Source: Cyclobacteriaceae bacterium (GTDB lineage: Bacteria; Bacteroidota; Bacteroidia; Cytophagales; Cyclobacteriaceae). Taken from it: a stretch of DNA of 64,000 bases. Positions 36,241 to 54,038 of this stretch are shown here, one piece after another. The position numbers and the translations under genes are program-made. Positions within the stretch are counted from its first letter, which is position 1; each line of letters starts with the position of its first letter. The notes under the pieces were generated by a model. That model did no database searches. It saw only the letters and a program-made list of their open reading frames with translations, and had not been told where the DNA came from. The stretch spans positions 310,001 through 374,000 of the forward strand of contig JAHBTX010000005.1 in the NCBI GenBank assembly GCA_019638395.1. The letters run 5' to 3'.

Positions 36241-37893
36241 TTACTCCCAAACAACAACCCCCGGCTGCGTATGGTACCAGGTGGAATACTTAGGTAAATG
36301 TATTTTCTCCACTTCGTTTCGCTTAACTTTTAATGTGGGCGTAAGCAACCCATTCTCTACCGTCCAATCTGTTTTCATCACTACAATTTTCTCAAGCCTT
36401 TCATACGTCTCCAATTCTGGATTTATTAAGGCAATAGAATTTTCCAACCCCTGAATCAGTTCTGCTTTTTGTTTTGCTTTTCCTGCTGGAGAAAGTACCA
36501 CCAACGCAATAGGCTGCGGAATACCCATTCCCACAACGCAAACCTGATCGATATCCGAGTTCGCCAATAATTTCATTTCTATTGGAGTAGGTGCAATGTA
36601 TTTTCCTTTATCGGTTTTAAACTGATCCTTCACCCTGCCGGTTATCTTCAAAAATCCATCGGCCGAAATTTCTCCCTGGTCGCCTGTTTTTAAATACCCA
36701 TCTTCATCAAACAACTCTTTGGTAAGCTCTGGTTCTTTGTAATACCCCAATGTAAGCCCAGGGCACTTTACACGTATCTCTCCACCCTCCGCAATTTTTA
36801 CAAGCAAACCTTTAAAGGGTTTCCCTACCGTACCATGCCGGTTTGCTTCGTTGCGATTAAAGTGTGCATACACACAGTCCTCCGTCATGCCGTAGGCTTG
36901 CAAAATCTTCACGCCTAATTTTTCATACCATTGTAACAAGTCAACAGAAATAGGTGCAGCACCACTAAAAATTTGTTTCGCCCGCGAAAGCCCTATCCCC
37001 TTTTTTATTTTGTTTTTGATTAACGAACTAACCACAGGAATTTTTAGCAGCGTGTCCAATTTTTTCTGCGGAAGTTTTTCCAGAATTTTTTCTTGAAACT
37101 TAGCCCAGATACGAGGCACAGCAAAGAAGTGTGTGGGTTGTGTATCGGCCAGATTTTTAGGGAAGGATTCCAATGTTTCCGGAAACGAAAATGTGCCCCC
37201 TTGGTAAACGCCCATCAATTCAATGCCCATGCGCTCGGCAATATGGCTCATCGGTAAGTACGAAAACAAAATCGGGTGCATTTGTATGCCTAATTCTTTT
37301 GTGCCCTGTTGAATAGTACTATCAAACGCAGCTACTGAATGCATTACCCCTTTTGGTTTACCGGTTGTGCCCGATGTGTACATAATGGTTAACAGATCGT
37401 CTTGCTTCCAGGCATGTGGCTCTTGTACGGGCTCATATTTCGTTAACCAACTTTCCCACGTTTGGTCTGTATGTGTTCCATAGCTGGAAACACCCAGCGT
37501 AATTACGTTGGCAGGGATTCCGCTTTTCTGTTCTTCAAAATTATCGAGCTTGCCAGCAATGACCAGTTTTGATTCACTGTGATCCAGTATTTGTTTAATA
37601 GATGAAGCGGTGAGTGTTGCATAAAGTGGTACCGAAACATGGCCCGCCATCATAATCGCTAAATCGGCCATTACCCAATGCGCACAGTTTTTAGAGATTA
37701 GCGCAATAGTACTGCCTTGTGGAAAACCAAGGGATTTTAATCCTGTGGCTATCCGCCTGATTTCATTACTGGCTTGCTGGTAAGTCCATGTTTTCCATTG
37801 ACCGTTAAAGGGCTGGCGTAAAAAAGGCTGCGTTGGGATTTCTTTTTCCCACTTTAGAAACTGCAGCAGAGGAGTGCTTGCATTCATAAACAT
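36241..37893 (-). CDS. Long-chain acyl-CoA synthetase (AMP-dependent ligase)
   Basis: The 550-residue ANL-superfamily enzyme activates fatty acids to acyl-CoA through an acyl-adenylate. The P-loop-like motif is LLTIMYTSGTTGKPKGVMHS (about 168-187), followed by SYLPMSHIAERMG, GAAPISVDLLQWYEKLGVKILQAYGMTEDC, and the C-terminal hinge YLKTGDQGEISADGFLKITGRVKDQFKTDKGKYIAPTPIE. It is slightly shorter than typical 590-residue Bacteroidota FadD-like proteins but complete. An alternative ATG lies two codons on. No operon partner. Confidence 0.93.
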   Translation of the reverse strand: MFMNASTPLLQFLKWEKEIPTQPFLRQPFNGQWKTWTYQQASNEIRRIATGLKSLGFPQGSTIALISKNCAHWVMADLAIMMAGHVSVPLYATLTASSIKQILDHSESKLVIAGKLDNFEEQKSGIPANVITLGVSSYGTHTDQTWESWLTKYEPVQEPHAWKQDDLLTIMYTSGTTGKPKGVMHSVAAFDSTIQQGTKELGIQMHPILFSYLPMSHIAERMGIELMGVYQGGTFSFPETLESFPKNLADTQPTHFFAVPRIWAKFQEKILEKLPQKKLDTLLKIPVVSSLIKNKIKKGIGLSRAKQIFSGAAPISVDLLQWYEKLGVKILQAYGMTEDCVYAHFNRNEANRHGTVGKPFKGLLVKIAEGGEIRVKCPGLTLGYYKEPELTKELFDEDGYLKTGDQGEISADGFLKITGRVKDQFKTDKGKYIAPTPIEMKLLANSDIDQVCVVGMGIPQPIALVVLSPAGKAKQKAELIQGLENSIALINPELETYERLEKIVVMKTDWTVENGLLTPTLKVKRNEVEKIHLPKYSTWYHTQPGVVVWE

Positions 37894-38024: not shown

Positions 38025-39128
38025 AGTTGATTTTGTGAAAGCTTGTTACAATGGCCCGCAACGGTGTCGGAAAACTGAATGCAGCCCTTGTAAATAGGAT
38101 TAACCTGATTTATCTCGATTAACATGCTCCAGCGGAGCATCCTGTTTGTAAAAACTTAGTAAGCATCAAGAGCATGTCGCCTGCGCACGTAATTGAAATG
38201 CAACCCGTTCAGCGACATAACGCACGAGTTGATTTTGTGAAAATCTATCTTGTCGCAAATCCTAACTAATGGACTTCTAAAAATTCCTGATCGTATTTAA
38301 ATCATGAAATTGAAGAAATCCCAACCGCACTCCCACCGTAACTTCATGCGTTGTAAACTGTGTGCCTACCGATTTTCCCGTAGGCAACTCAAACACATAC
38401 GCAAACCGCAGGTTATCGCCCAGGTTAATTTGTGCAAAGGCCCCATAGGTAGTAAGGTTTCGTGTAAACAACCCCAGCGAGTAACTATCATCTACTTTGA
38501 GCGATGCCGCATAATCCATTGATACAGGGGCCCCACTTACCAGGCGCGCCATTACCCACGGCTTTACTTTTATGCGATACGAAAGTTGAAACACATAGGC
38601 CGCCAGGGCATACGCATGTTGGTTATACAAACTGGTGCTGTATGCTTCAACGGTGGTGGTGGCCTTTAGCAGTTTAGGAACCGAAAGACCAACCATAAAT
38701 TTTTCGCTGCGCAAAATTAAGCCCGTACCCAAATTGGGCTTCCATTCGCTTTGGTTCGCAAACTTCCCATCGGCCGGGTCGAACAGTACCTGGGCGTAAT
38801 CGGTTTGGTAGTTAATTATACCCCCCTGCAAACCAAATGAAAGTTTAACATCGGTACTCAGTGGCAAATGATAGCCATAGGTAAATATGGCTTCGGTGGT
38901 TTTGTCGGCCCCCACTCTATCTTGCAACACAATTAAACCGGCACCCATTCTATTGTTGTTAAGTGCCAGGTGTGCGTTGGCATTCATGGTTACAGGGCTG
39001 CCTTCAAAACCAGCCCACTGTTTCCGATACACAACGGAAGCCGAAAAATCTGTTGTGCTACCCGAATAGGCCGGATTAATCAACAACGGATTATTTATGT
39101 ATTGAGAATAAAGTGGGTCTTGTTGGGC
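38025..39128. repeat. Long near-identical duplicate tract, copy A
   Basis: This 1,104-bp tract matches 46086-47189 at a constant offset of 8,061 bp. By eye I found one difference (C at 38206, T at 46267). It covers a noncoding repeat and all of the PorP/SprF gene except the signal-peptide codons. The bases just upstream (37894-38024) hold nothing I can support. Confidence 0.92.
38088..38242. repeat. 155-bp intergenic repeat unit, copy A
   Basis: The unit runs from TTGTAAATAGG to GATTTTGTGAAA and contains the 17-bp hairpin ATGCTCC-AGC-GGAGCAT (38124-38140) followed by CCTGTTTGTA. Two more copies are at 45946 and 46149. It has no coding potential and resembles REP-type intergenic elements. Confidence 0.88.
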
Positions 39129-39179
39129 TAATGCACTCCAATTTGTAAGAAGTAAAAGGACATATATTAGCTTCTTCAT
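38277..39179 (-). CDS. PorP/SprF family T9SS-associated outer-membrane protein, copy A
   Basis: The 300-residue protein has a signal peptide (MKKLIYVLLLLTNWSALAQ) and begins QDPLYSQYINNPLLINPAYSGSTTDFSASVVYRKQWAGFEGSP, the hallmark of PorP/SprF proteins. A beta-barrel-like remainder follows. In the family, SprF is needed to export and attach type-B T9SS cargo such as the SprB adhesin. It is the last gene of a minus-strand operon, 5 bp after the type-B cargo gene, which fits a cargo-partner pair. The mature protein is identical to copy B at 46338, while the signal peptides differ. Confidence 0.95.
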   Translation of the reverse strand: MKKLIYVLLLLTNWSALAQQDPLYSQYINNPLLINPAYSGSTTDFSASVVYRKQWAGFEGSPVTMNANAHLALNNNRMGAGLIVLQDRVGADKTTEAIFTYGYHLPLSTDVKLSFGLQGGIINYQTDYAQVLFDPADGKFANQSEWKPNLGTGLILRSEKFMVGLSVPKLLKATTTVEAYSTSLYNQHAYALAAYVFQLSYRIKVKPWVMARLVSGAPVSMDYAASLKVDDSYSLGLFTRNLTTYGAFAQINLGDNLRFAYVFELPTGKSVGTQFTTHEVTVGVRLGFLQFHDLNTIRNF

Positions 39180-39184
39180 GGTGC

Positions 39185-41956
39185 TTAACGTTTTAAAGCA
39201 ATAAATCCATTGACTGATTTACCCTGCGGAAAATCTAATTTATAGAAATAGGTTCCGGATGGCAGCTCTTTACCTGCGCTTGTTTGACCAGCAAATACGC
39301 CTGATACATTATCATAGTTGGTTCGCTCGTAAACCACATCGCCCCAACGATTCAGAATGGTGATTTTATTGTTGGTTGCTCCTTCAATTACATCCAAATA
39401 TTTGATGTATAAAAAATCATTGATGCCATCGCCATCGGGCGTAATGCCATTAAACACTTTCACAACACCCACCACATCAATATCCAGCACTTGTTGTGCA
39501 CACGCTGCGGCAAGGTCGCACACTTCAAGTGTTATGCGATCAATTCCCGTAAAGGGATTGCCCGCATAATCAATTAGTAGATTTAACGCTGCATCAACCA
39601 ATGCAGGCTGCCCGCGCGCTGTTTGGTTATTCACTACCCGGAGTGAATTAAAATTGATGTTACCATCTGCATCCGAAACAAGAGGTGTTAAGTCAAACCT
39701 AAGTTCACCTTCTATTTGAGCCGCCAAGGCAACAACTTCTATTTGAGGTGGCCGATTAATACCACCACCTGTACATTCCAAACCTGTTGCTGTTACTGTA
39801 ATAACATCAGATACCGGTGAAAGACAATTAGCCGCATTACCTACTACCAACGAATGGGTACCCGCTGTCGATACTGAAATACCTTGCTTGGATTGGCCAC
39901 CCGACCATGCGTAAATGGTAAACCCTGATGGCCCCAATAACCCCACTGAATTATTTCCACACAATTGTGTGCTTCCAAAAACATCAACTACCGGTTTAGC
40001 TGGTGTAGTAAATGTTCGCACGGTTATAACATTGGAAGGCGCGCTAAAACAGTTACTTCCATCTGCCACAATTACAGAATAATCTCCGGCCGCGTTTATC
40101 GAAATAGTTTGGGTTGTAGCTCCGTTGGACCATTGATAGGTAAAACCGGTTGGTGCCGATAACGTTACGAAAGCACCATCACATAAATCGGTGGCACCAG
40201 CGGCTGTAATTGCAGGAACTGCCGGTCGGGCTGAAACAATAATGATTGCCGGTGCCGAAGGTTGGCTGGTACAAGTACCATCGCCAACCACTACAGTATA
40301 ATTACCCGAAACTGTTACAACAATTTCTCGTGTGGCTTCACCATTCGACCAGAGGTAGGATGAAAAACCAATCGGAGCACTTAGTCTGATGGAATTACCT
40401 TCGCAGATAGTAGCACTATTGATATTTAACAGCGGTGGTGTGGTGTTGATTACTGTTGCTACAACTGTGGTGCGATTGCTCTCACAAAGAGTTACCGGAT
40501 CAAACACACTTACAAAAAAATTGGTGGTAGTGGTAACGGAGGGAGTTGTAAATACAGATCCTGTAAACAAAACGGTTGTTGACGTAGCATCTGCATACCA
40601 GCGATAAACCTGCGAACCAATTGCGCCTGAAGTAGCGGTTAATACCAGCGTTCCGTTATTACATCGGCTTGCACCCGTGGCTACCGGTTGCAATGGAGGC
40701 GTACATGCAAGTACCGTAAAAGGTTTTGTTTCGATTGGGCTCCAGATTCCGTCTGCATCTTGCACCCGAATGCTAAGTGAGCGCGTTCCTGATGATACAC
40801 CACTTAAAATAATTGAAAAATTTTCATTTATGACTGGGCCCGGTGTAACCACTAATGGAGCACCATTTCCCTCACCAGGATCAGTACCATCATAAAAATA
40901 TTCGGCTGCCACAATATCGCCCATGGTGGGATTGGCCGGTGTAACATAAAAGCCTCGCATTTCAAACAAACCCCACATACCCGCTGCGTCTTTCGTGCGA
41001 ATTGTAAGAAAATGAAAACCGGGAGTAAGTGCAGTTGTTGGAACATCTAGTGTAAAATTTGAAATCGCACCAGCAGGAATTGAAAGTGCTGTTCCATTTC
41101 CAATACCTGGATCGGAATCAAAAAAATATTCAGCGGTAATAAGATTGGCAGCATCGGTAGCGGAAGAAGAAATGTAAAACCCACGCGCTTCAAAAATTCC
41201 CCACTTACCATTAGTACCTTTTGTACGAATACCCAGAAAATGAAACCCGGGTGTAAGACTTGCAGTTGGAATGCTGGCCGTAAAGTTTACCGTGCTTCCG
41301 GATGCAACAGGCAATGCAATTCCATTGCCGTTACCGGGATCGGTATCAACAAAATATTCGGCCGCAGCAATATCAGGCGAATTGGTTGTTGATGCCGTAA
41401 TGTAAAAACCACGGGCTTCAAACAATCCCCATTTGCCACTTGCATCTTTTACTCTGATAACCAGAAAGTGAAAGCCTGCTGCAAGGCTTCCGGTTGGAAT
41501 TGGAATGGTGAAAGTAGCATTAGCTCCTGGTGTTATTGAAATGGGGGTGCCGTTTCCAATTCCGGGATCAGTATCCAGAAAGTATTCAGCAGCTGCAAGG
41601 TTTGCCGCATTGCTGGTAGAAGTTGTTATATAAAACCCACGCGGTTCAAACTGACTCCAGCCCAGGTTTGTTTCACTTACCCGTAGCCCTAACATGTGAA
41701 AGCCTTGCGGCAATGCACCGGTTGGAATAGCGGTGGTGAACGTAACATTAGCACCGGGTGTAATCGTAATAGGTGTTCCGTTGCCCGGCCCGGGATCTGA
41801 GTTAAAAAAATATTCAGCCCGCGAAATGGTTTGAGCGGAGATGGATGATGAGATGAGCAGCAGAATTAGAAATTGCCGATAGTCAATAGTCAATAGTGAA
41901 TGTAAAAGACTATCGACTATGAACTGAAGACTAAGAACTATGTGCTTCGACTTCAT
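39185..41956 (-). CDS. Repeat-rich T9SS type-B cargo protein, copy A
   Basis: About 923 residues. After a hydrophobic segment (LILLLISSSISAQ) come five tandem repeats of roughly 75 residues, each with AEYFFDSDPGxGNG followed by a beta strand and FHFLxIRxKDAxGxWGxFExRGFYI. Next are an Ig-like domain (CTPPLQPVATGASRCNNGTLVLTA) and three SxPxGFxxYxWSxGxxxxxI modules. A cadherin-like part leads into the type-B sorting domain (FNGITPDGDGINDFLYIKYLDVIEGATNNKITILNRWGDVVYE to GFIALKR). This C-terminus directs export by T9SS and surface attachment. The N-terminus is odd: the first 28 codons come from a low-complexity tract, so the true start may be later. Confidence 0.92.
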   Translation of the reverse strand: MKSKHIVLSLQFIVDSLLHSLLTIDYRQFLILLLISSSISAQTISRAEYFFNSDPGPGNGTPITITPGANVTFTTAIPTGALPQGFHMLGLRVSETNLGWSQFEPRGFYITTSTSNAANLAAAEYFLDTDPGIGNGTPISITPGANATFTIPIPTGSLAAGFHFLVIRVKDASGKWGLFEARGFYITASTTNSPDIAAAEYFVDTDPGNGNGIALPVASGSTVNFTASIPTASLTPGFHFLGIRTKGTNGKWGIFEARGFYISSSATDAANLITAEYFFDSDPGIGNGTALSIPAGAISNFTLDVPTTALTPGFHFLTIRTKDAAGMWGLFEMRGFYVTPANPTMGDIVAAEYFYDGTDPGEGNGAPLVVTPGPVINENFSIILSGVSSGTRSLSIRVQDADGIWSPIETKPFTVLACTPPLQPVATGASRCNNGTLVLTATSGAIGSQVYRWYADATSTTVLFTGSVFTTPSVTTTTNFFVSVFDPVTLCESNRTTVVATVINTTPPLLNINSATICEGNSIRLSAPIGFSSYLWSNGEATREIVVTVSGNYTVVVGDGTCTSQPSAPAIIIVSARPAVPAITAAGATDLCDGAFVTLSAPTGFTYQWSNGATTQTISINAAGDYSVIVADGSNCFSAPSNVITVRTFTTPAKPVVDVFGSTQLCGNNSVGLLGPSGFTIYAWSGGQSKQGISVSTAGTHSLVVGNAANCLSPVSDVITVTATGLECTGGGINRPPQIEVVALAAQIEGELRFDLTPLVSDADGNINFNSLRVVNNQTARGQPALVDAALNLLIDYAGNPFTGIDRITLEVCDLAAACAQQVLDIDVVGVVKVFNGITPDGDGINDFLYIKYLDVIEGATNNKITILNRWGDVVYERTNYDNVSGVFAGQTSAGKELPSGTYFYKLDFPQGKSVNGFIALKR
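41877..41942. repeat. Low-complexity ATAGTC/GACTAT word tract at the 5' end of cargo gene A
   Basis: The plus strand reads ATAGTCAATAGTCAATAGTGAA, then AGACTATCGACTATGAACTG, so the words AGTC and GACTA recur and can pair. This is the style of noncoding spacers seen between genes here, yet it falls within the coding frame upstream of the signal-peptide core. Confidence 0.6.
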
Positions 41957-41964
41957 CAACCTAA

Positions 41965-43086
41965 TTAATTACTCTTCCGTGCTTCAACCGTTACACTTAG
42001 GTTGCCACCGGGTGTTACCGTAGGTGTAGTTATATTCATACTAAAGATGCGCGGCAACCGACTGTTGCGACTATTAGTCCAGTTTAAACTGCCCACCGCA
42101 TCAAACAACAAGCCCAGGTCTTTGCCATCGCTACCCGAATTATTGGCCGGGCCACTCGCAATGGTAAAGTTGAGTAACGGGCTACCGTTATTTCCGTTAA
42201 TAATGGCTTGATCGGCCATGGCAGGACTTGTATTAGCAATGTTTCCACCGCCATCTACGTTACTATTGACAGCCCACGGTGTAGCATTTGATATAGCATT
42301 GGCGGAGTTTAATGTGATGTTGTTGGTTATGTTATTGGAAAATGTACTGAAGCTAAGGTTAAGCCCGGCATTAACCTGATTAAAGATATTATTGGTTAGT
42401 GTAAGGAATCGACAATTGGAAGAAAACAATGCTATTGTACTACCACCACTGTTATTGTTGCTGTAAAAAAGGTTATGGTCGAATCGAACATTTACACTAT
42501 TGGTAAGCGAGTTCACCATAAAGGAAACAGCACCAGTATTAAAAAAGAACATATTATTCTGAAAAAGAAAATTCTGATAGGTGCTGGATGAAAAATTCAG
42601 GTAGTGATAGAAGAGACAACCCTCAAAAAGAAATCCGGATGCTGCAAGTTGAAATTCAATGTTAAGATTAAACTGGCACCGGATAATCCGGATGTTGTTA
42701 ACACCAAAATCACCAGTTACTGCATTTCGCGAAAGAGTTGCCGTGCTTACAAATATAAGGCCGTGCAATTCCGAGCCATCGGGGCTGCCACCCGCTGGCG
42801 AATTTCTAATGTTTACTCCGTTAACGATTGCTGATAAGGGCAGGTTTTTATCAGGTGCCCAACCGGGGCCAATTACGGTTATCCTTTTATCTACTATATC
42901 AAATCCCGCATAAACGTTAGGGCTTCCATATACATATACCGTGTCGCTATCTGCACTGGCATCAATAGCCGCCTGAATGGTACTGAACTGACCAATTGTG
43001 CTGGGGTTACTGCTTACTGTGCGCACAGTTGCTTGTGAATAACTCGCAACAATGATTGCAAAGAGGAATAAATAGTATTTTTTCAT
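41965..43086 (-). CDS. Exported parallel beta-helix protein, copy A
   Basis: From the ATG at 43086 the protein has 373 residues with a signal peptide (MKKYYLFLFAIIVASYSQA). The mature start TVRTVSSNPSTIGQFSTIQAAIDASADSDTVYVYGSP is a pectate-lyase-like opening. Asparagine-rich beta-helix rungs follow (FLFQNNMFFFN, VRFDHNLFYSNNNSG and LTLTNNIFNQVNAG). It ends in a short Ig-like strand (PTVTPGGNLSVTVEARKSN) and has no recognisable sorting domain. It heads the minus-strand operon, 8 bp before the cargo gene. The homologue in module B is at 49541. Confidence 0.86.
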   Translation of the reverse strand: MKKYYLFLFAIIVASYSQATVRTVSSNPSTIGQFSTIQAAIDASADSDTVYVYGSPNVYAGFDIVDKRITVIGPGWAPDKNLPLSAIVNGVNIRNSPAGGSPDGSELHGLIFVSTATLSRNAVTGDFGVNNIRIIRCQFNLNIEFQLAASGFLFEGCLFYHYLNFSSSTYQNFLFQNNMFFFNTGAVSFMVNSLTNSVNVRFDHNLFYSNNNSGGSTIALFSSNCRFLTLTNNIFNQVNAGLNLSFSTFSNNITNNITLNSANAISNATPWAVNSNVDGGGNIANTSPAMADQAIINGNNGSPLLNFTIASGPANNSGSDGKDLGLLFDAVGSLNWTNSRNSRLPRIFSMNITTPTVTPGGNLSVTVEARKSN

Positions 43087-43151
43087 AAACAAGAAGCTTT
43101 CAAAGTATGGCTACCAACCAGTTAAAAATAGAATCGCGGTGCATATCACTC

Positions 43152-43197
43152 AATACCTGAAAGTGATGAATTATACCTGCGAAAAAATACCTGAAAG
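43152..43197. promoter_or_regulatory. Two direct repeats in the divergent control region of module A
   Basis: AATACCTGAAAG occurs at 43152-43163 and again at 43186-43197, with a partial ATACCTG at 43173. They lie in the 185-bp gap between the divergent beta-helix and kinase genes, a natural site for the response regulator. I do not see the motif in the corresponding gap of module B. Confidence 0.5.
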
Positions 43198-43271
43198 CAG
43201 GTAGAACCTGATACGATTTTGATACCTTATATTTAAGAAAAAGTGTGCCTATTCGGTTTAAATAATAGGTT

Positions 43272-45215
43272 ATGTTAAGATTAGCGGTTGGGTTAATCAT
43301 GGTTTGGTTGTGCTGCCCCCCGGCACAAAGCCAGGAAAAAACAGACAGTTTATTAGTTCAATTAGCATCCGCTGAAAGTGATAGCACCCGCTCTGATTTA
43401 TTGTTTCAGATTGGAAGAGAGCATTGGTTTAAACGCAATTTTCCGGAAGCTACCCACTATCTAAGGCAAGCTTTGCATATCGGGATTAAAAGTGGCTATA
43501 AACTCAATCAGGCCGATGCGTACAATTTGCTGGCAAACGTGTATTTGAAACAACAGGTGTATGACTCTGCTTTTGAGTATTTAGAAAGAGCCCTTCATAC
43601 GCAAGATGAAAAGTTTGTTCCTCATATACATGAAACCTATAGTAAGCTTTACTATCAATTAGGAGATTATCAAACTTCCCTCAAATACGCATTAGAATCA
43701 GCCGATGGGTTTGAGAAAATGAGGGATGCAAAATTTAATGTTCAACTGGTATTTGCATACATTGTAATTGGCGACATCTTAAATGCAATGGGGAAGGTCG
43801 ATGATGCTTTTAACTATTATCAAAAAGCATACATTCGAGCTAAGCAAGAGTCTAAAAACTGGTATGTAAAAACACCTTTGCTTCGAATCGCGGCATATTA
43901 CCTTACTTTAGGCAACTATGATAAAGCACAGCTTTTATACGACACTATCATCACTATCGATAAAAATGCTATTAGTCTGGAGCCAACCATGTTTAGTTAT
44001 GAAGGGTTAGGAGATATTGCCATACAAAAGAAGAATTACAGGCAGGCAATACTTCATTATCGCGAAGCATTACGCTATGCCTTAGAAAAAGGCTTTTCAG
44101 CTAGCATTAGTAACTTCTATTTTAAGCTTGGCTCTGCATTTATAGCCAAAGGACAACAAGATTCGGCACAGTATTACCTTACTTTAGCAGTTAAAAAATC
44201 CGAGACTGGAAAAAATTATACGACACTTCAAGCTTCCTATGCTGCGTTAGCAACACTTTATAAACAACAAGGGCATTTTAAAAATGCACTGCGGGCATTC
44301 GAACTCCATAAAGCCTACTCCGATAGTGTGCTGAATGTCGAGCGTCTTCATTCCGTTACCAAACTCGAAGCTTTATACCGCACCCGGCAAAAAGAAAATG
44401 AAATTATCCGGCTGCAACAGGAAAGTGCCTTTCAAATCAGAAAAAGAAACATCTATGTTGGTATCGGAATCGGGTTAATAATGGTGCTGTGTATCATTTT
44501 TATTTTAGCAAGACGCAACTACCGTAACATAGAGCGCTTACAGGAACAAAGGGTAGAGCATTTGGAACAGCAGCAACAGGTTATTTCACTACAAGCCATG
44601 GTTAACGGCCAGGAAACCGAACGCAACCGGATAGCCAAAGACCTGCACGATGGCCTGGGCGGGCTATTCTCTACCATTAAAATGTACTTCAGCTCGTTAC
44701 AGCACCAAAAAAAAGACTTAAGAGAAGATGAGTTATTTCAAAAAAGTTATGCGTTGATCGATTCGGCCGCAGAAGAGATACGAAAAGTTGCACACAGCAT
44801 GATGCCTGAAGTGCTCATGAAGCTTGGATTAATAAATGCTATTAGGGATTTATGCGATAGTATTACTGCCGGAAAGTTAATTCGAGTCTCCTTAGAAGTA
44901 CATGGCATACATAACAGGCTTAATTCCAGCACCGAAATCATGCTTTATCGTATTATTCAGGAGCTGATCAATAATATATTAAAGCATGCCCAGGCAACCG
45001 AAGTAATTATACAATTCATTCGGGATGCCGAAAGATTAAGTGTTATAGTAGAAGATAACGGGAAGGGATTCAATACGCTTCATGTTAACATCGGTAACGG
45101 AAGTGGTTTGGAAGCAGTAAAAAGCCGGGTAAACTATTTAAATGGCCGTATGAGTATCGACTCTGCAAAAGGTGTAGGCACCACAGTTATGATGGACTTT
45201 TTAATTAATGAATAA
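43272..45215 (+). CDS. TPR sensor histidine kinase, module A
   Basis: The 647-residue protein has a signal/anchor (MLRLAVGLIMVWLCCPPAQS) and about ten TPR-like helical pairs in residues 30-370. A membrane segment follows near 398-416 (GIGIGLIMVLCIIFILA), then a coiled coil. The HisKA_3 dimerisation domain has RIAKDLHDGLGGLFSTIKMYF with phospho-acceptor His459. The HATPase_c domain shows the N box QELINNILKHAQA and the G boxes VEDNGKGFN and GNGSGLEAVKSRVNYLNG. This is the NarL-type kinase layout. The 3' end overlaps the regulator gene by 8 bp. Confidence 0.93.
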   Translation: MLRLAVGLIMVWLCCPPAQSQEKTDSLLVQLASAESDSTRSDLLFQIGREHWFKRNFPEATHYLRQALHIGIKSGYKLNQADAYNLLANVYLKQQVYDSAFEYLERALHTQDEKFVPHIHETYSKLYYQLGDYQTSLKYALESADGFEKMRDAKFNVQLVFAYIVIGDILNAMGKVDDAFNYYQKAYIRAKQESKNWYVKTPLLRIAAYYLTLGNYDKAQLLYDTIITIDKNAISLEPTMFSYEGLGDIAIQKKNYRQAILHYREALRYALEKGFSASISNFYFKLGSAFIAKGQQDSAQYYLTLAVKKSETGKNYTTLQASYAALATLYKQQGHFKNALRAFELHKAYSDSVLNVERLHSVTKLEALYRTRQKENEIIRLQQESAFQIRKRNIYVGIGIGLIMVLCIIFILARRNYRNIERLQEQRVEHLEQQQQVISLQAMVNGQETERNRIAKDLHDGLGGLFSTIKMYFSSLQHQKKDLREDELFQKSYALIDSAAEEIRKVAHSMMPEVLMKLGLINAIRDLCDSITAGKLIRVSLEVHGIHNRLNSSTEIMLYRIIQELINNILKHAQATEVIIQFIRDAERLSVIVEDNGKGFNTLHVNIGNGSGLEAVKSRVNYLNGRMSIDSAKGVGTTVMMDFLINE

Positions 45216-45842
45216 AATCACCTCCATACTTATAATTGATGATCACCCGTTGGTAGCAGATGGCATCCGTGCTATGTTGCGCGAGGCACCTGACTTACAA
45301 ATTACAGGAGTTTGCAAAACCGCACAGGATTCTTTTGAGTTTTTAAAAGTGCATAGCCCGGACATTATACTTTTAGATATAAGCCTGCCTGATATGGATG
45401 GATTGCAGGTGTGCACATCTATCCGTGCCAAAAATCAGGATTCAAAAATAATTGGACTTACATCAACTAACGAAGCCGGAATTATTACCGGACTATTGCA
45501 ACGCGGAGGTAATGGCTATTTGCTTAAAAACATGGAACGCAATGATTTATTAGATGCAATTAGCACAGTAAAGGCCGGAAAAATCTATTTGAGTAAGGCT
45601 GCTAATGAAAAAGTGTTAGAGCAATTTCAACGAAGCGAAACCAATAACCAACCTTTGTTAACGAGGCGCGAAAAAGAGATACTTGCTTTATTAGCAGAAG
45701 GATTAAACGGACCTGAAATAGCCAAAAACTTTTCCTTAGCCCCCTTACAGTAGAAACTCATCGAAAAAACCTATTACGAAAATTTAATGTACACAGCGTT
45801 CAATCATTGCTTAAAACAGCGCGCGATTTTGGTTTGCTTTAA
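45208..45842 (+). pseudogene. LuxR-type response regulator of module A, frameshifted in its DNA-binding domain
   Basis: The frame starts at ATG 45208 and encodes a receiver domain with Asp11, Asp12 and phospho-acceptor Asp57 (DIILLDISLPDMDG). It then runs into a LuxR helix-turn-helix (LTRREKEILALLAEGLNGPEIAKNF) but stops at 45753 after 181 residues. From about 45731 another frame continues SPLTVETHRKNLLRKFNVHSVQSLLKTARDFGLL, the missing recognition helix and C-terminus, ending at 45842. One added base in the T run at 45730-45733 would restore a 211-residue protein. So one base is missing, through mutation or a sequencing error. The truncated product could still be phosphorylated but would probably not bind DNA. 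Confidence 0.9.
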
Positions 45843-45945
45843 CCGCTTGTGTTTGCTTGTTTTTGAGATTAATCCATGCATTTCAATTCTCTCGACCCAC
45901 AAATTTAAATTCAATTCCACAAACAGGTAGCTCCATCGGAGCCCT

Positions 45946-46101
45946 TTGTAAATAGGATTAATCTGATTTATCTCGATTAACATGCTCCAGCGGAGCATCC
46001 TGTTTGTAAAAAACTTAGTAAGCATCAAAAGCATGTCGCCTGCACGTGTAATTGAAATGCAACCCGTTCAGCGACATAACGCACGAGTTGATTTTGTGAA
46101 A
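45946..46101. repeat. Intergenic repeat unit, copy B1
   Basis: A 156-bp copy of the unit at 38088, with a handful of differences. It is preceded by a shorter hairpin, GCTCC-ATC-GGAGC (45930-45942), carrying ACAAACAGG on its left in mirror orientation to the CCTGTTTGT of the main hairpin (45982-45998). Confidence 0.85.
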
Positions 46102-47189
46102 GCTTGTTACAATGGCCCGCAACGGTGTCGGAAAACTGAATGCAGCCCTTGTAAATAGGATTAACCTGATTTATCTCGATTAACATGCTCCAGCGGAGCA
46201 TCCTGTTTGTAAAAACTTAGTAAGCATCAAGAGCATGTCGCCTGCGCACGTAATTGAAATGCAACCTGTTCAGCGACATAACGCACGAGTTGATTTTGTG
46301 AAAATCTATCTTGTCGCAAATCCTAACTAATGGACTTCTAAAAATTCCTGATCGTATTTAAATCATGAAATTGAAGAAATCCCAACCGCACTCCCACCGT
46401 AACTTCATGCGTTGTAAACTGTGTGCCTACCGATTTTCCCGTAGGCAACTCAAACACATACGCAAACCGCAGGTTATCGCCCAGGTTAATTTGTGCAAAG
46501 GCCCCATAGGTAGTAAGGTTTCGTGTAAACAACCCCAGCGAGTAACTATCATCTACTTTGAGCGATGCCGCATAATCCATTGATACAGGGGCCCCACTTA
46601 CCAGGCGCGCCATTACCCACGGCTTTACTTTTATGCGATACGAAAGTTGAAACACATAGGCCGCCAGGGCATACGCATGTTGGTTATACAAACTGGTGCT
46701 GTATGCTTCAACGGTGGTGGTGGCCTTTAGCAGTTTAGGAACCGAAAGACCAACCATAAATTTTTCGCTGCGCAAAATTAAGCCCGTACCCAAATTGGGC
46801 TTCCATTCGCTTTGGTTCGCAAACTTCCCATCGGCCGGGTCGAACAGTACCTGGGCGTAATCGGTTTGGTAGTTAATTATACCCCCCTGCAAACCAAATG
46901 AAAGTTTAACATCGGTACTCAGTGGCAAATGATAGCCATAGGTAAATATGGCTTCGGTGGTTTTGTCGGCCCCCACTCTATCTTGCAACACAATTAAACC
47001 GGCACCCATTCTATTGTTGTTAAGTGCCAGGTGTGCGTTGGCATTCATGGTTACAGGGCTGCCTTCAAAACCAGCCCACTGTTTCCGATACACAACGGAA
47101 GCCGAAAAATCTGTTGTGCTACCCGAATAGGCCGGATTAATCAACAACGGATTATTTATGTATTGAGAATAAAGTGGGTCTTGTTGGGC
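46086..47189. repeat. Long near-identical duplicate tract, copy B
   Basis: Partner of 38025-39128. Its right edge lies at the codons for the signal-peptide end of PorP/SprF, its left edge in the noncoding repeat. Confidence 0.92.
46149..46303. repeat. Intergenic repeat unit, copy B2
   Basis: The 155-bp unit follows copy B1 at a period of about 203 bp and matches the copy at 38088 except for one base. Its hairpin is at 46185-46201. The 495-bp gap between the regulator pseudogene and PorP/SprF copy B is essentially filled by these two units. Confidence 0.88.
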
Positions 47190-47240
47190 CATCGCGGTAA
47201 GTGATACAAACACTAACAGCGCAGTTAAAAATCTTTTCAT
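46338..47240 (-). CDS. PorP/SprF family T9SS-associated outer-membrane protein, copy B
   Basis: The 300-residue protein has its own signal peptide (MKRFLTALLVFVSLTAMA) but the same mature sequence as copy A from QQDPLYSQYINN to the C-terminus. It would sit in the outer membrane and help export and hold the type-B cargo encoded 4 bp upstream. Because the two cargos differ while the two PorP/SprF proteins do not, one PorP/SprF type must serve both cargos. Confidence 0.95.
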   Translation of the reverse strand: MKRFLTALLVFVSLTAMAQQDPLYSQYINNPLLINPAYSGSTTDFSASVVYRKQWAGFEGSPVTMNANAHLALNNNRMGAGLIVLQDRVGADKTTEAIFTYGYHLPLSTDVKLSFGLQGGIINYQTDYAQVLFDPADGKFANQSEWKPNLGTGLILRSEKFMVGLSVPKLLKATTTVEAYSTSLYNQHAYALAAYVFQLSYRIKVKPWVMARLVSGAPVSMDYAASLKVDDSYSLGLFTRNLTTYGAFAQINLGDNLRFAYVFELPTGKSVGTQFTTHEVTVGVRLGFLQFHDLNTIRNF

Positions 47241-49540: not shown

Positions 49541-50677
49541 TTAATTGTTTACGGTTGCTTTCACATTTACATTCAGCGTTCCGTTAACGGGTACGGTTGC
49601 ATTTTGAATGTTAAGTTCGGTAACCTGTGGAATGGGAGGCATGGGGCTTGTATCGTAACCCGACCCAACTGCACCTCCACTCGGAAATGGATAAGAGCCA
49701 CCATATATTCCTATATCTGTTCCATCAGTAGCTGCATTTTTTCCTACGGAACCCGCCTGAAGTCGATAGTTGGCGGTGGCTACGTAGCCATTAAAATTTG
49801 ATACCGCAGCGTACAGGGGATCGACACCAACAAAATTACCCGCACCAAAGTTACTACCACCACCGGTGCCCGTAAATGTGTTAATAAAACTATTGGCCGG
49901 AGTATAGGATGAAGGATCTGCTATTGTGCTTTGATTGGAGATGTTATTATTAAAGGTACACAGTACCGGACCGGTGCCACCACCATAAAAAACGGTACCC
50001 GTAGTGCGGGTAAAAATGTTATTGGTAATAATTATGTTATAAATCTGAAAAAGATTATTAGCACCTAGAAACAGGTTATGATCAACAATTATTGAATTAC
50101 TATTGAACCCATAGAGGTAGGTGTTTGTGTTTGAAAAAATATTGTTGGCTATTATAATATTAGTTGCCGATTGTGAAGTTCGGGAGTTCGCACCACCATA
50201 TATATATGAGTCAAAAATGTTATTGTAAAATGTCCAACCATCGGCATAGGCCGTAGGCGATCCTCCGGCCATGTTTATATAGCTTGTAAACCGACAACGG
50301 AAAACACGAATGTTGTTGCTCATTAATCCGGTAATATCCAACCGGCTGGTTAGAATTCCGGTTAGAACACTACCGGTTGCATTATTTACGCCTGTATCGC
50401 GAAACAAATCAATGTTGGCAATATTGGTAGGTTGCCCGAATTGATTATTCGGATTATACCCCGCACCAATAATTACCAATCGTTTATTAATGGAAATGGC
50501 AGGGTATTGAAAAGGGGAGCCATATATATAGATCGTATCACCATTTACCGATGCGGATTGAGCCGCTGCAAAAGTGGTAAACTGTGCCGGCCGGGTAGGG
50601 TTGTTACTTACAGTACGCACCGTAGCAAATGTGGTAGTGCATGCGAATAAAGTTGCTATTACAAGTATCTTACGCAT
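49541..50677 (-). CDS. Exported parallel beta-helix protein, copy B
   Basis: The 378-residue protein has a signal peptide (MRKILVIATLFACTTTFA) and the same mature start as copy A (TVRTVSNNPTRPAQFTTFAAAQSASVNGDTIYIYGSP). Asparagine-rich rungs follow (NIIIANNIFSNTN, IIVDHNLFLGANN and NIIITNNIFTRTTG), and a C-terminal strand segment LNIQNATVPVNGTLNVNVKATVNN. It lies 12 bp after a lipoprotein gene and 22 bp before cargo copy B, so all four are one operon. Role unknown, presumably on the cell surface or in the periplasm with the cargo. Confidence 0.86.
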   Translation of the reverse strand: MRKILVIATLFACTTTFATVRTVSNNPTRPAQFTTFAAAQSASVNGDTIYIYGSPFQYPAISINKRLVIIGAGYNPNNQFGQPTNIANIDLFRDTGVNNATGSVLTGILTSRLDITGLMSNNIRVFRCRFTSYINMAGGSPTAYADGWTFYNNIFDSYIYGGANSRTSQSATNIIIANNIFSNTNTYLYGFNSNSIIVDHNLFLGANNLFQIYNIIITNNIFTRTTGTVFYGGGTGPVLCTFNNNISNQSTIADPSSYTPANSFINTFTGTGGGSNFGAGNFVGVDPLYAAVSNFNGYVATANYRLQAGSVGKNAATDGTDIGIYGGSYPFPSGGAVGSGYDTSPMPPIPQVTELNIQNATVPVNGTLNVNVKATVNN

Positions 50678-50689
50678 ATTCCTGTTGTT

Positions 50690-51202
50690 TTATTCTTTTA
50701 CTTTAAAACTCATTTCTGTAACAATTTCTGAGTCGCTGTTTTTATCAAACACGCGCACTTTGCACAAATAAGAATTACCTGCTTGCATAGGGTTGCCTAC
50801 CGTTATGGAACCCCGCAAAACCGATGCGGCTTCCGGGTCAAAACCTTCGGTGTAAGAACTGAAAAGATCGGCTTCATTTAATATAAAAGCCCCGCTTGCA
50901 TCCGTAACTTCAATGGAAAGACCCGGAAAGGCTTTGCCTTCCTTCAAAGTATAATTTTCAATTCCTTCATATACAATCGAGAATTTGCTTTCGAGCGAAA
51001 GCTCGTTATCACGCAGCTGATTGTCTTCTGCGTCAACTACGTAAACATTTTCCACGGCAAAACCAGAGTAGGCTGTTTTGGCTCCGGTAGAAAGATCGGC
51101 CTTTACGCCTTTGGAAAACCCAACGCTAAAACCCGAACCACCAGAGTTGGAGCAGGCGGCTGCAAACACAAGTATAATCGCGAGGGTAGAAATTGATTTC
51201 AT
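50690..51202 (-). CDS. Lipoprotein of unknown function heading module B
   Basis: From the ATG at 51202 the protein has 170 residues with the signal MKSISTLAIILVFAAAC and a lipobox at AAAC, followed by a serine- and glycine-rich linker. The mature domain is beta-rich (VENVYVVDAEDNQLRDNELSLESKFSIVYEGIENYTLKEGKAFPGLSIEVTDASGAF). No family recognised. There is no counterpart in module A. Confidence 0.75.
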   Translation of the reverse strand: MKSISTLAIILVFAAACSNSGGSGFSVGFSKGVKADLSTGAKTAYSGFAVENVYVVDAEDNQLRDNELSLESKFSIVYEGIENYTLKEGKAFPGLSIEVTDASGAFILNEADLFSSYTEGFDPEAASVLRGSITVGNPMQAGNSYLCKVRVFDKNSDSEIVTEMSFKVKE

Positions 51203-51426
51203 TTTGAGAATGCTTAAAGTATTTCGAAAAGGGCAATGCTTACGCTGAGCCAAAGTAAGTGTAGCCGGTGAAGTTATCCTTCCCCTTAAAAGGGGATTTT
51301 AGTTAGTTTTAGTTATTGGGTTTTACTTTTAAACCTGGCAAGGCATCACCAAAAAAGGGGATTTTTAATTATTTATAAACTAATCACCACTAACAGGCGA
51401 TGTGATTAATGTAATTTCGCTTTGCA

Positions 51427-53421
51427 ATGCTTTTACGATTTTTCGTTTTCATAATTCTATTCGCGCTGGTTACCACTTCTGGCTATAGCCAGGCCGGGCA
51501 GCAAACTTACCTGGATAGTTTATTAACCCTAACCAGAAAAAAGAACCCCGATAGTACTTTGGTTGCAGCGCTTGAAGAAGTGCAACGATTTTATTTTAAC
51601 CGGGGTGTGTATGATTCAACACTCAAGTATGCCTGGCGTGCATTGCCACTTGCCAAAAAGCTGAAGCTCAAAAGAAAGGCAGCAAAAATTAACTTCATCA
51701 TTGGGTTATCTTATACCAACAAAACCCAATACGATAGTGCCGAACTTTACTTACAAGAAGCTTTACTATATGTACCGGTTATCCAGGATACCATTTTAGA
51801 AGTTAACACCTACAATGCGCTATCTAAACTTTACGCATTTCAAACAGATTATACCACGGCCATGGAGTATCTGATGTTAGCTACAACCCGGATTGATCAG
51901 GCTTCATCTCCAAAGGTTAAAGATTTTTTACCCATGACTTATGGTAACATTGGCAACACCCTGATTGCCGAAGGCCAATTGCAAAAAGGAAATGACTATT
52001 TACAGAAGGCCTTGCTTTTACGGGGCTACCCCGATGAGCATCGATTTAGATTATTTATTTATCTGGATGTTTTTAGTGTTTATATGAAACAAAATAATAT
52101 ACCATTAGCTAAAGTACAATTAGATTCTGCTGTTGCACTTAGTCTTAAAATAAACAACGTAGTGGCCAACTCTATAGTGGCCAACAACGAGGGCTTCTAC
52201 TATCAAACTATTAACGATACAAAAAATGCCCTAAAAGCTTATATGAAGTCTTACCAGCTGAGCGATAGCACCGGTAACGATTATCAAAAATCGGAGGTTG
52301 GGGTAAACATTGGCTACCTGTATTTGCAGCAAAAAAAATATCCGCAAGCTGAACAGCTTGCTCAAGAGGCAATGGTATTGGGGAAAAGGTTCAAAAATTT
52401 AAAAGTGGTAGCCGATGCATATGAAATTTTAAAAGATATTGAAACTAACACCGGAAACCTTAGCCGTGCTTTACACTATGCCGAATTAAATAAGATATAT
52501 TCAGACAGTGCTACCAACTCAGAAACACAAAAACTCATTCTCTCGCTGGAGTCGAGGTATCAACATCAGAAAAAGGAGAGTGAGATTGCCAATCTTACTA
52601 ACCTGGCCACACAAAGAGAGTTAGAGGTAGTAAAACGAAACCGGCTGCTGGTTGGGGGTGGGATTTTTAGTTGTGCCGCATTATTGATCTTAGGATTGTT
52701 ATACAAGAATAGTCGCCAACGCCAGTTGCTGGCTGAACACAAGCAATCTTTACAACGCGAGCGCATAAAATTTTTAGAAGGTCAGCAGCAGGTAGCCACC
52801 TTACAAGGCATATTAAAAGGCCAGGATGAAGAGCGGGGCCGGTTAGCGAAAGATCTGCACGATGGCCTGGGGGGGTTATTGTCCGGTGTAAAATTTTCAC
52901 TTACCAATATGAAATCGAACGTTGTATTAGATGCCGAAAGCGCTTTAGTGTTTGAGCGATCGTTGGATATGCTTGACAATTCCATTTCCGAACTCAGGCG
53001 CGTAGCCCATAACATGATGCCGGAAGTACTGGTAAAGTTTGGGTTACAGGAAGCTCTCAAAAGTTATTGCGACTCCATACAACAATCAGGAATATTTAAA
53101 ATCGAATTTCAATCGCTTGGTAACGAAATTCGTGTGGCCTCCAATACCGAAATAATTTTATACCGGATTGTGCAGGAACTACTCAACAATGTATCTAAAT
53201 ATGCCAAAGCTTCTACCGTTTTGGTGCAGTTGGCTTTTCATGAAAATGAAATCAGCATTACGGTAGAAGACAATGGCGTTGGGTTTGATGTTAACAAAAC
53301 ACAACAATCTACAGGAGCCGGCTGGAATAACATTCGCTCGCGTGTGGAGTACTTGCGTGGTACGGTAGATGTAACTTCTGGAGCAACCGGAACTTCTGTT
53401 CATCTTCATATCCCTGTTTAA
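51427..53421 (+). CDS. TPR sensor histidine kinase, module B
   Basis: The 664-residue protein has a signal/anchor (MLLRFFVFIILFALVTTSGYS), TPR-like repeats in 30-390 and a membrane segment near 410-428 (GGGIFSCAALLILGLLY). A coiled coil follows, then HisKA_3 with RLAKDLHDGLGGLLSGVKFSL (phospho-acceptor His478). HATPase_c has QELLNNVSKYAKAS and VEDNGVGFDV. It is homologous to the kinase of module A with the same layout. The regulator gene begins 2 bp later. The upstream gap carries two AAAAGGGGATTTT repeats (51288 and 51353). Confidence 0.93.
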   Translation: MLLRFFVFIILFALVTTSGYSQAGQQTYLDSLLTLTRKKNPDSTLVAALEEVQRFYFNRGVYDSTLKYAWRALPLAKKLKLKRKAAKINFIIGLSYTNKTQYDSAELYLQEALLYVPVIQDTILEVNTYNALSKLYAFQTDYTTAMEYLMLATTRIDQASSPKVKDFLPMTYGNIGNTLIAEGQLQKGNDYLQKALLLRGYPDEHRFRLFIYLDVFSVYMKQNNIPLAKVQLDSAVALSLKINNVVANSIVANNEGFYYQTINDTKNALKAYMKSYQLSDSTGNDYQKSEVGVNIGYLYLQQKKYPQAEQLAQEAMVLGKRFKNLKVVADAYEILKDIETNTGNLSRALHYAELNKIYSDSATNSETQKLILSLESRYQHQKKESEIANLTNLATQRELEVVKRNRLLVGGGIFSCAALLILGLLYKNSRQRQLLAEHKQSLQRERIKFLEGQQQVATLQGILKGQDEERGRLAKDLHDGLGGLLSGVKFSLTNMKSNVVLDAESALVFERSLDMLDNSISELRRVAHNMMPEVLVKFGLQEALKSYCDSIQQSGIFKIEFQSLGNEIRVASNTEIILYRIVQELLNNVSKYAKASTVLVQLAFHENEISITVEDNGVGFDVNKTQQSTGAGWNNIRSRVEYLRGTVDVTSGATGTSVHLHIPV

Positions 53422-53423
53422 AA

Positions 53424-54038
53424 ATGACACCCCGCATCTTTATAGTGGACGATCACCCGATGGTAGTAGAAGGTATGCGCAGCATGTTGCAACAACTACC
53501 TAGTGTAGAAGTTTGTGGCCATGCTACCAACGCCCGCTCCTGCATGGGTTATTTCGTTAACAACACAGCTGATATCGTGCTGCTGGACATTAACCTGCCC
53601 GATGAGAGTGGTATTGATGTATGCAAACTTTTGTTACAGCAAAAACCGGGGCTTAAGATAATCGCACTCACCAACTTCGATCAACTCACGTACATCCAAC
53701 GCATGAAGGATGCAGGAGCCAAAGGATATTTATTAAAAAATTCCACGCTCGATGAAATTGAGCAGGCAATTGTTGCCATCATGAACGGGCAAGAGTATTG
53801 GTTAGGCCGCGATAACCTGCGCGATTCGTTAAAAGATAATAATCAGCTTTTGCTAACCCGAAGAGAAGTGGAAGTGTTGAAACTGATTGCCGAAGGACTA
53901 ACCAACCCGGAAATTGCCGATAAACTATTTGTTAGTGCCAGTACAATCGATTCGCATCGTAAAAGTTTAATCTCAAAGTTGCAGGTAAAAAATACCGCTG
54001 CTTTAATCCGAACAGCCCTTGAAAATAAAATCATCTAA
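53424..54038 (+). CDS. LuxR-type response regulator, module B
   Basis: The 204-residue protein has a receiver domain with Asp9, Asp10 and phospho-acceptor Asp55 (DIVLLDINLPDESG) and Lys in YLLKNS. An intact LuxR helix-turn-helix follows (LTRREVEVLKLIAEGLTNPEIADKLFVSASTIDSHRKSLISKLQVKNTAALIRTALENKII). It is the cognate partner of the kinase 2 bp upstream, and the next gene starts 3 bp later, giving a three-gene operon. It is probably the only regulator of its kind left intact in the two modules. Confidence 0.94.
   Translation: MTPRIFIVDDHPMVVEGMRSMLQQLPSVEVCGHATNARSCMGYFVNNTADIVLLDINLPDESGIDVCKLLLQQKPGLKIIALTNFDQLTYIQRMKDAGAKGYLLKNSTLDEIEQAIVAIMNGQEYWLGRDNLRDSLKDNNQLLLTRREVEVLKLIAEGLTNPEIADKLFVSASTIDSHRKSLISKLQVKNTAALIRTALENKII

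Follow-up and report, generated by a model that had tools for sequence, protein, structure and literature searches.

Why do two type IX secretion system (T9SS) modules, diverged in their cargo, sensor and regulator genes, carry PorP/SprF shuttle genes whose mature parts are the same? The question arises from a 64,000-nucleotide stretch of a Cyclobacteriaceae bacterium genome (GCA_019638395.1, contig JAHBTX010000005.1, positions 310,001 to 374,000), hereafter called the window. Each of its two modules consists of a companion gene, a type-B T9SS cargo and, directly downstream of the cargo, a PorP/SprF gene, all on the minus strand, with a TPR kinase and a response regulator on the opposite strand. 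We consider it very probable that these are two old shuttle loci at which the mature PorP sequence has been homogenised within each genome by recurrent gene conversion, while module-specific signals and flanks were retained. The features compared are as follows.

38277..39179, minus strand: PorP/SprF shuttle 1, 300 amino acids (PF11751, 216.3 bits, cut-off 22.3, 7.6e-64; TIGR03519, 229 bits, cut-off 90.55, 8e-68)
46338..47240, minus strand: PorP/SprF shuttle 2, 300 amino acids, mature part the same as in shuttle 1
39126..39179, minus strand: signal peptide 1 (SP1), MKKLIYVLLLLTNWSALA, codons 1-18 (1-17 outside the tract)
47187..47240, minus strand: signal peptide 2 (SP2), MKRFLTALLVFVSLTAMA, codons 1-18 (1-17 outside the tract)
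38025..39128, minus strand: tract read as converted, copy 1, comprising 252 bp 3′ of PorP1 and PorP1 from its stop back to codon 18
46086..47189, minus strand: tract copy 2, matched base by base to copy 1
38206 (C), partner 46267 (T), no strand: sole mismatch of the tract, intergenic, 3′ of the PorP gene

The family-model scan was run on PorP1, and PorP2 was assigned through its identical mature part. At an offset of 8,061, the two tract copies agree at 1,103 of 1,104 bp, which rules out chance similarity. The preliminary description had reported a 1,104-bp match with one difference, identical mature proteins with different signals, and strongly diverged neighbours. All of this was borne out. 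From codon 18 to the stop the two genes are the same at 852/852 bp, including 137/137 fourfold-degenerate sites (dS, the synonymous divergence, is 0), and a further 251 of the 252 bases past the stop agree. The signals share 50% nucleotide and 33% amino acid identity, and the tract flanks show 14-46% identity per 50-bp bin (1.6 kb compared per side). Between modules 1 and 2, amino acid identity is 51% for the cargo, ~30-35% for the companion, 31% for the kinase and 39% for the regulator, with synonymous sites saturated or nearly so; the proposed comparison of synonymous divergence thus sets PorP clearly apart from its neighbours. PorP1 has 12 matches in the window genome at E 0.001, PorP1 and PorP2 included, and the other ten reach at most 47% identity. 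Because the fourfold sites and the downstream bases agree, copying of DNA is required: protein constraint alone cannot produce synonymous and intergenic identity.

A sister species, G058 (the metagenome-assembled genome (MAG) ACE_BAC5, JAHBTY010000002.1), has the gene order of the window, acs-PorP1-cargo1-bh1-hk1-rr1-PorP2-cargo2-bh2-x2-hk2-rr2-d1. Its own PorP1 and PorP2 are 98.2% identical in nucleotides, with 15 differences in 855 bp (counted from codon 18 to the third base beyond the stop). Since 12 of these 15 cluster in the 3′ part, conversion events of different age are likely in G058. The mature PorP of the window and that of G058 share 78% nucleotide identity. PorP dS was 0.068 within G058, against 1.28 and 1.36 between the species (nonsynonymous divergence, dN, 0.10), and 14 other locus genes gave dS values of 0.40-2.80 between the two species (median 0.90; for bh1 the comparison covers 275 codons, the G058 gene being split). 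Trees joining the window PorPs with a single G058 copy were rejected (p-AU 2.5e-134 and 6.6e-89).

Whereas the mature parts group by genome, the surrounding sequence groups by module. SP1 of the window is 70% identical in nucleotides to SP1 of G058 and 50% to its SP2, and SP2 is 69% identical to SP2 of G058 and 48% to its SP1. Site patterns in signal codons 2-17 comprise 11 of module type and 2 of genome type, and those from codon 18 to the stop 0 and 176, respectively. In the 25 nt upstream of PorP, 22/25 and 23/25 positions match within modules, compared with 7/25 and 8/25 across them. The 3′ flanks match within modules only (threshold E 0.05), over 211 bp at locus 2 (77%, E 1.8e-42, largely rr1 coding) and over 39 bp at locus 1 (77%, E 8e-6). 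Because everything around the mature gene (the signal codons, the spacer upstream and the 3′ flank) is orthologous by module, both PorP loci are older than the species split, and the signals are older module-specific remnants beside the tract, as had been suggested. With dS of ~1.3 between species against 0-0.07 within them, and no copy having kept the older state, the mature PorP was overwritten after the split in at least one lineage, most simply in each. As judged from these two genomes' sequences, this is concerted evolution: the copies within a genome are closer than orthologues in conserved synteny, the identity extends to synonymous sites, and the borders are abrupt.

Two further features of G058 were observed. 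Its mature PorP is 83% identical to that of the window in amino acids, below those of G051 (89%) and G008 (86%), though the other genes compared place G058 closer to the window; a foreign allele may have spread to both copies of its PorP pair (L086/L087). In addition, its module-1 companion gene is split across two overlapping frames (L086 13462-14590).

What sets the borders of the tract? Codon 18, which encodes the Ala preceding QQDP, has position 39128 as its first base, and the last signal codon thus falls within the tract; from the A-x-A|Q pattern, signal cleavage is predicted after A18. The earlier statement that the tract ends at the signal boundary therefore holds for its PorP-side end, at codon 18, but not for the other end, which reaches 252 bp past the stop and includes a REP-like (repetitive extragenic palindromic) repeat. 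The homogenised stretch starts at codon 18 in both the window and G058. In a third genome, ACE_BAC7, it begins at base 18 of the PorP open reading frame, within the signal, and a tie between tract border and signal cleavage was dropped for this reason. Nothing special is needed to explain why the tract ends near the cleavage point, as the diverged signals lack homology to each other. The simplest reading of the border is that conversion extends to the end of homology; signals, which hold only general properties, presumably drift fast and hence stay outside the tract. An RNA element at the tract border was also considered, but the window contains neither a tRNA nor an Rfam match that reaches the gathering score.

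The other end of the tract bears on the direction of copying. Three REP-like repeats lie at the two loci:

38085..38242, no strand: REP-like palindromic repeat b within tract copy 1 (7 genomic core copies, at most 3 mismatches)
46146..46303, no strand: REP-like repeat b within tract copy 2, from the repeat comparison
45943..46101, no strand: REP-like repeat a, at locus 2 only; its final 16 bp (46086-46101) form the left end of the tract

Locus 2 thus has one additional repeat copy, ~96% identical, beside the tract, and the left end of the tract falls in the final 16 bp of this repeat, which is complete at locus 2 only. Since locus 1 resembles a truncated copy of repeat a, copying would have run from module 2 to module 1, a direction that we consider fairly likely for the last event in the window. 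Outgroups in the window's genus give no direction, because the branching of the PorP tree agrees with the apparent order of the species. The repeat core has 7 copies in the 4.78-Mb genome, 3 at the two PorP loci and 4 in a tandem cluster (G000 C12, 596.9-597.8 kb); the family appears to have spread by local tandem copying and, at the PorP loci, by gene conversion.

We also looked for the tract in related genomes, as the preliminary description had proposed. With the module-1 companion, 62 genomes of the genus were searched (27 matched, the window's own counted), as were 390 genomes drawn from the larger group at family level (41 matched, the genus-level ones included); companion loci were opened in 28 of these 41. 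ACE_BAC7 (G195, JAHBUD010000002.1, locus L118) belongs to a different genus from the window and carries one module of cargo1 type and one of cargo2 type, both with a PorP behind the cargo; the two PorPs show 3 mismatches in 918 bp (99.7%). Both cluster with PorP2 of G139, a genome of the same genus as ACE_BAC7 (support 97/99). Four genomes were seen to have both modules, each with a PorP of its own, and three of these were homogenised. In G017 and G265 both cargo types occur with a single PorP, placed between or behind them, and only one module type turned up in G008, G019 and G066. Of 25 distinct PorP pairs, each within one fetched stretch, three reach at least 0.99 amino acid identity (window, G058 and ACE_BAC7), followed by 0.74, 0.61, 0.56 and lower values. 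Fourteen pairs lying 8.8-9.8 kb apart have 0.32-0.37 amino acid identity and are probably too diverged to recombine. A by-eye comparison of bit scores among the matches listed for the 62-genome search, which is no census, gave no clear further homogenised pair. Recurrence in independent lineages is thus clear for the window and G058 and probable for ACE_BAC7, with G139 negative. The suggestion of a recent gene conversion accordingly stands as to conversion but not as to a single event, as G058 was homogenised independently and ACE_BAC7 probably so.

The signal codons of the ACE_BAC7 PorPs (L118 9917-10050 and 17775-17900) contain an in-frame palindrome encoding a PSHKAD...GRPC stretch, and PorP2 of G139 (L205) has a similar PSHKAD stretch. 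Searched as a genome-wide repeat in ACE_BAC7 with at most 3 mismatches allowed, the palindrome had 2 matches, both in the PorPs.

Several observations weigh against recurrent conversion or limit it. G139 has both module types, but its PorPs share 74% amino acid identity, lie 24 kb apart and contain no near-identical patch beyond the last five codons; homogenisation is therefore not obligatory. Its PorP1 sits elsewhere, upstream of its companion gene. The second PorP copy of ACE_BAC7 is cut by the contig end. Within the signals, the two genome-type sites, together with 5 of the 21 one-sided ones, oppose pairing by module (p 0.027 per copy). The direction proposed for the window is drawn only from the repeat layout. 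Finally, all comparisons use assemblies, G058 and ACE_BAC7 being MAGs and the window genome and G139 drafts.

Could each lineage instead have gained a fresh PorP by independent duplication or insertion, with no old second copy overwritten? The genomes in which one module type was found would fit this, as would the differing PorP positions in ACE_BAC7 and G139; because PorP1 of G139 is placed differently, a moved fresh duplicate is possible for ACE_BAC7 in place of conversion in situ. For the window and G058, however, signal codons, upstream spacer and 3′ flank are orthologous by module for both copies, and we regard fresh duplication as improbable.

An assembly or polishing artefact, in which a single PorP was written onto both loci, seems very improbable. 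The window genome is a 27-contig draft, the repeat is longer than short reads, the ACE_BAC7 contig ends within the repeat, and the out-of-frame rr1 of the window and bh1 of G058 may be indel errors. Nevertheless, both window copies are contained in a single 491-kb contig, have different flanks and can be told apart by one base, and the G058 copies differ at 15 sites yet still group by genome.

It is likewise very unlikely that module 1 was excised and re-integrated as a circle via the PorP direct repeats, with this traffic homogenising them. A crossover would leave acs-PorP-cargo2-bh2-x2-hk2-rr2-d1, which is the order in G008, but plain module loss fits G008 equally well, more steps are needed than for conversion, and no direct sign of a circle was seen (no search for recombinase genes was made). 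That protein-level selection alone kept two old paralogues the same without copying of DNA is scarcely credible: PorP is under purifying selection (dN 0.10, dS 1.3 between species), but the fourfold and downstream identity refutes this unless the assembly is wrong, and selection for one PorP type, offered earlier as an alternative, may at most help to retain converted copies.

Under recurrent gene conversion, which we prefer, the two PorP/SprF genes would be the shuttles of two adhesin-like T9SS modules at old loci. Non-reciprocal homologous recombination between copies ~8 kb apart has repeatedly equalised the mature coding sequence, as the comparison of the two species shows. Judging from the borders, conversion would cross the conserved mature part and halt where the diverged signal codons fail to pair, so that signal, ribosome-binding region and 3′ flank stay specific to each module. 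The last event in the window is very recent, with a single difference across 1,104 bp, and probably took the REP-like repeat along from the 3′ side of PorP2 to that of PorP1. By analogy with F. johnsoniae, each module would supply its own shuttle, the same protein, and the product of either gene could accept either cargo from the translocon and serve as its anchor.

The remaining genes of the two modules are the following.

39185..41959, minus strand: cargo 1, with a C-terminal type-B T9SS sorting domain (CTD; 39188-39457, last 90 amino acids); PF13585, PF19081, TIGR04131
47245..49527, minus strand: cargo 2, type-B CTD (47248-47517, last 90 amino acids); PF13585, PF19081, PF17963, TIGR04131
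41965..43092, minus strand: bh1, module-1 companion ("beta-helix" in the preliminary description; no Pfam or NCBIfam match), ~30-35% amino acid identity to bh2
49541..50677, minus strand: bh2, module-2 companion; no Pfam or NCBIfam match
50690..51253, minus strand: x2, small module-2 protein; no Pfam or NCBIfam match
43272..45215, plus strand: hk1, module-1 TPR sensor histidine kinase (HisKA_3, HATPase_c, TPR)
45208..45753, plus strand: rr1, module-1 response regulator, 181 amino acids, stopping within the LuxR-type helix-turn-helix (212 amino acids in G058); family scan
51427..53421, plus strand: hk2, module-2 TPR sensor histidine kinase (HisKA_3, HATPase_c, TPR)
53424..54038, plus strand: rr2, module-2 response regulator, assigned by 38.6% identity to rr1 and not by family scan
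36241..37893, minus strand: acs, acyl-CoA ligase at the left border; of 19 relatives with the locus fetched, 8 have it next to the locus (some contigs short)

The genes directly upstream of PorP1 and PorP2 both have TIGR04131 and PF13585 at the C-terminus, so that each PorP adjoins a type-B CTD cargo. The shortening of rr1 is a frameshift or an assembly indel; if real, it would uncouple module 1 from its regulator. Conversion extending into the cargo sorting domain was rejected, as no tract is present there: the last 90 codons of cargos 1 and 2 share 70% nucleotide identity in the window and 77% in G058. The cargo ends of ACE_BAC7 have one 50-bp bin at 44/50.

Can one shuttle type serve both cargos? 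According to published work, type-B cargos of F. johnsoniae need PorP/SprF shuttles for secretion and anchoring, apparently stoichiometrically; three orphan cargos depend on a common shuttle (Fjoh_1677), and one cargo could be secreted by way of the shuttle belonging to a CTD 68% identical to its own, but not by way of those belonging to CTDs 43% and 26% identical (PMC12618676). Cargos are described as staying on the shuttle, which acts as an anchor (PMC9143113; PMC12635249). The last 90 amino acids of cargos 1 and 2 are 68% identical in the window, 76% in G058, 76% in ACE_BAC7, 80% in G139 and 84% in G017, whereas the N-terminal parts share 43-49% (43-46% in the three homogenised genomes). 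Because CTD identity in the window is at the level of the published cross-acceptance, a shared shuttle is plausible. We suggest only tentatively that the homogenised shuttle keeps both CTDs in one recognition group, so that modules could swap shuttles while adhesins, sensors and signals diversify; the unconverted CTDs of G139 are at least as similar, which argues against conversion holding the CTDs together.

In SprF, a periplasmic Cys-x-Cys at the C-terminal tail ties the protein to the gliding track (PMC12635249). PorP1 has no cysteine and, unlike F. johnsoniae SprF, therefore lacks this track-binding motif; it more likely anchors both cargos statically. Across 79 PorP-CTD pairs, co-variation was strong (Mantel r 0.84 against a maximum of 0.14 in 999 permutations); with shared ancestry uncorrected, this serves as context only. 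The input was 195 PorP open reading frames, duplicates between loci included, with identical ones counted once; PorPs with no QQDP in the first 80 amino acids, with a mature part below 240 amino acids or with no CTD cargo just upstream were dropped.

Some side observations concern shuttle and cargo pairing. The L124 PorP is 96% and 94% identical to those of L120 and L125, while the adjoining cargo CTDs are only 60% and 59% identical, a hint of one shuttle with different cargos. The cargos look mosaic, with a cargo1-type N-terminal part joined to other C-terminal parts (L092 = G052, L097 = G075, L062-L065, L090, L091 and L094). In G010, G011, G024, G044 and G047, a changed cargo C-terminal part goes with a PorP that is only 37-46% identical, as if CTD and shuttle were one exchangeable cassette.

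The transporters of the Haemophilus influenzae adhesin loci hmw1 and hmw2 are nearly identical. As in the window, two adhesin loci there have diverged cargo and exchangeable transporters, and hmw2BC can replace hmw1BC; the secretion system differs, however, and conversion is said to swap adhesin binding domains between the loci, whereas here it homogenises the shuttle and the adhesins diverge (PMC8262952). A type-B CTD cargo gene immediately followed by its PorP/SprF gene is also the arrangement of SprB-SprF-type pairs in F. johnsoniae. In that species, one shuttle gene serves several cargos or different shuttles show crosstalk, whereas each window module has its own gene with the same mature product.

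Concerted evolution itself is well known. In long-lasting prokaryotic cases (tuf, psbA, psbD and amo/hao, among others), syntenic paralogues are likewise closer within species, synonymous sites included (PMC6053082). PorP/SprF is not among the 26 genes of that paper, which does not list the 29 orders of tuf one by one. Identity there spans nearly the full gene, whereas the signal codons are spared in PorP, and its rule of five species lies above the 2-3 species found here. Within open-licence papers, mostly at title or abstract level, we found no account of gene conversion or concerted evolution of T9SS PorP/SprF genes; within that literature, what is new is the gene family and the signal-sparing tract.

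These results carry two warnings: PorP trees in multi-module genomes can reflect genome history and not module history, and the edges of conversion tracts can be mistaken for domain boundaries, signal cleavage sites among them. Type-B shuttle/cargo pairs have been described as specific with some crosstalk, and evolution seems to have run the shuttle swap at least twice. The resulting cargo pairs, presumably each served by a single shuttle type, offer a natural data set for finding the residues of CTD recognition.

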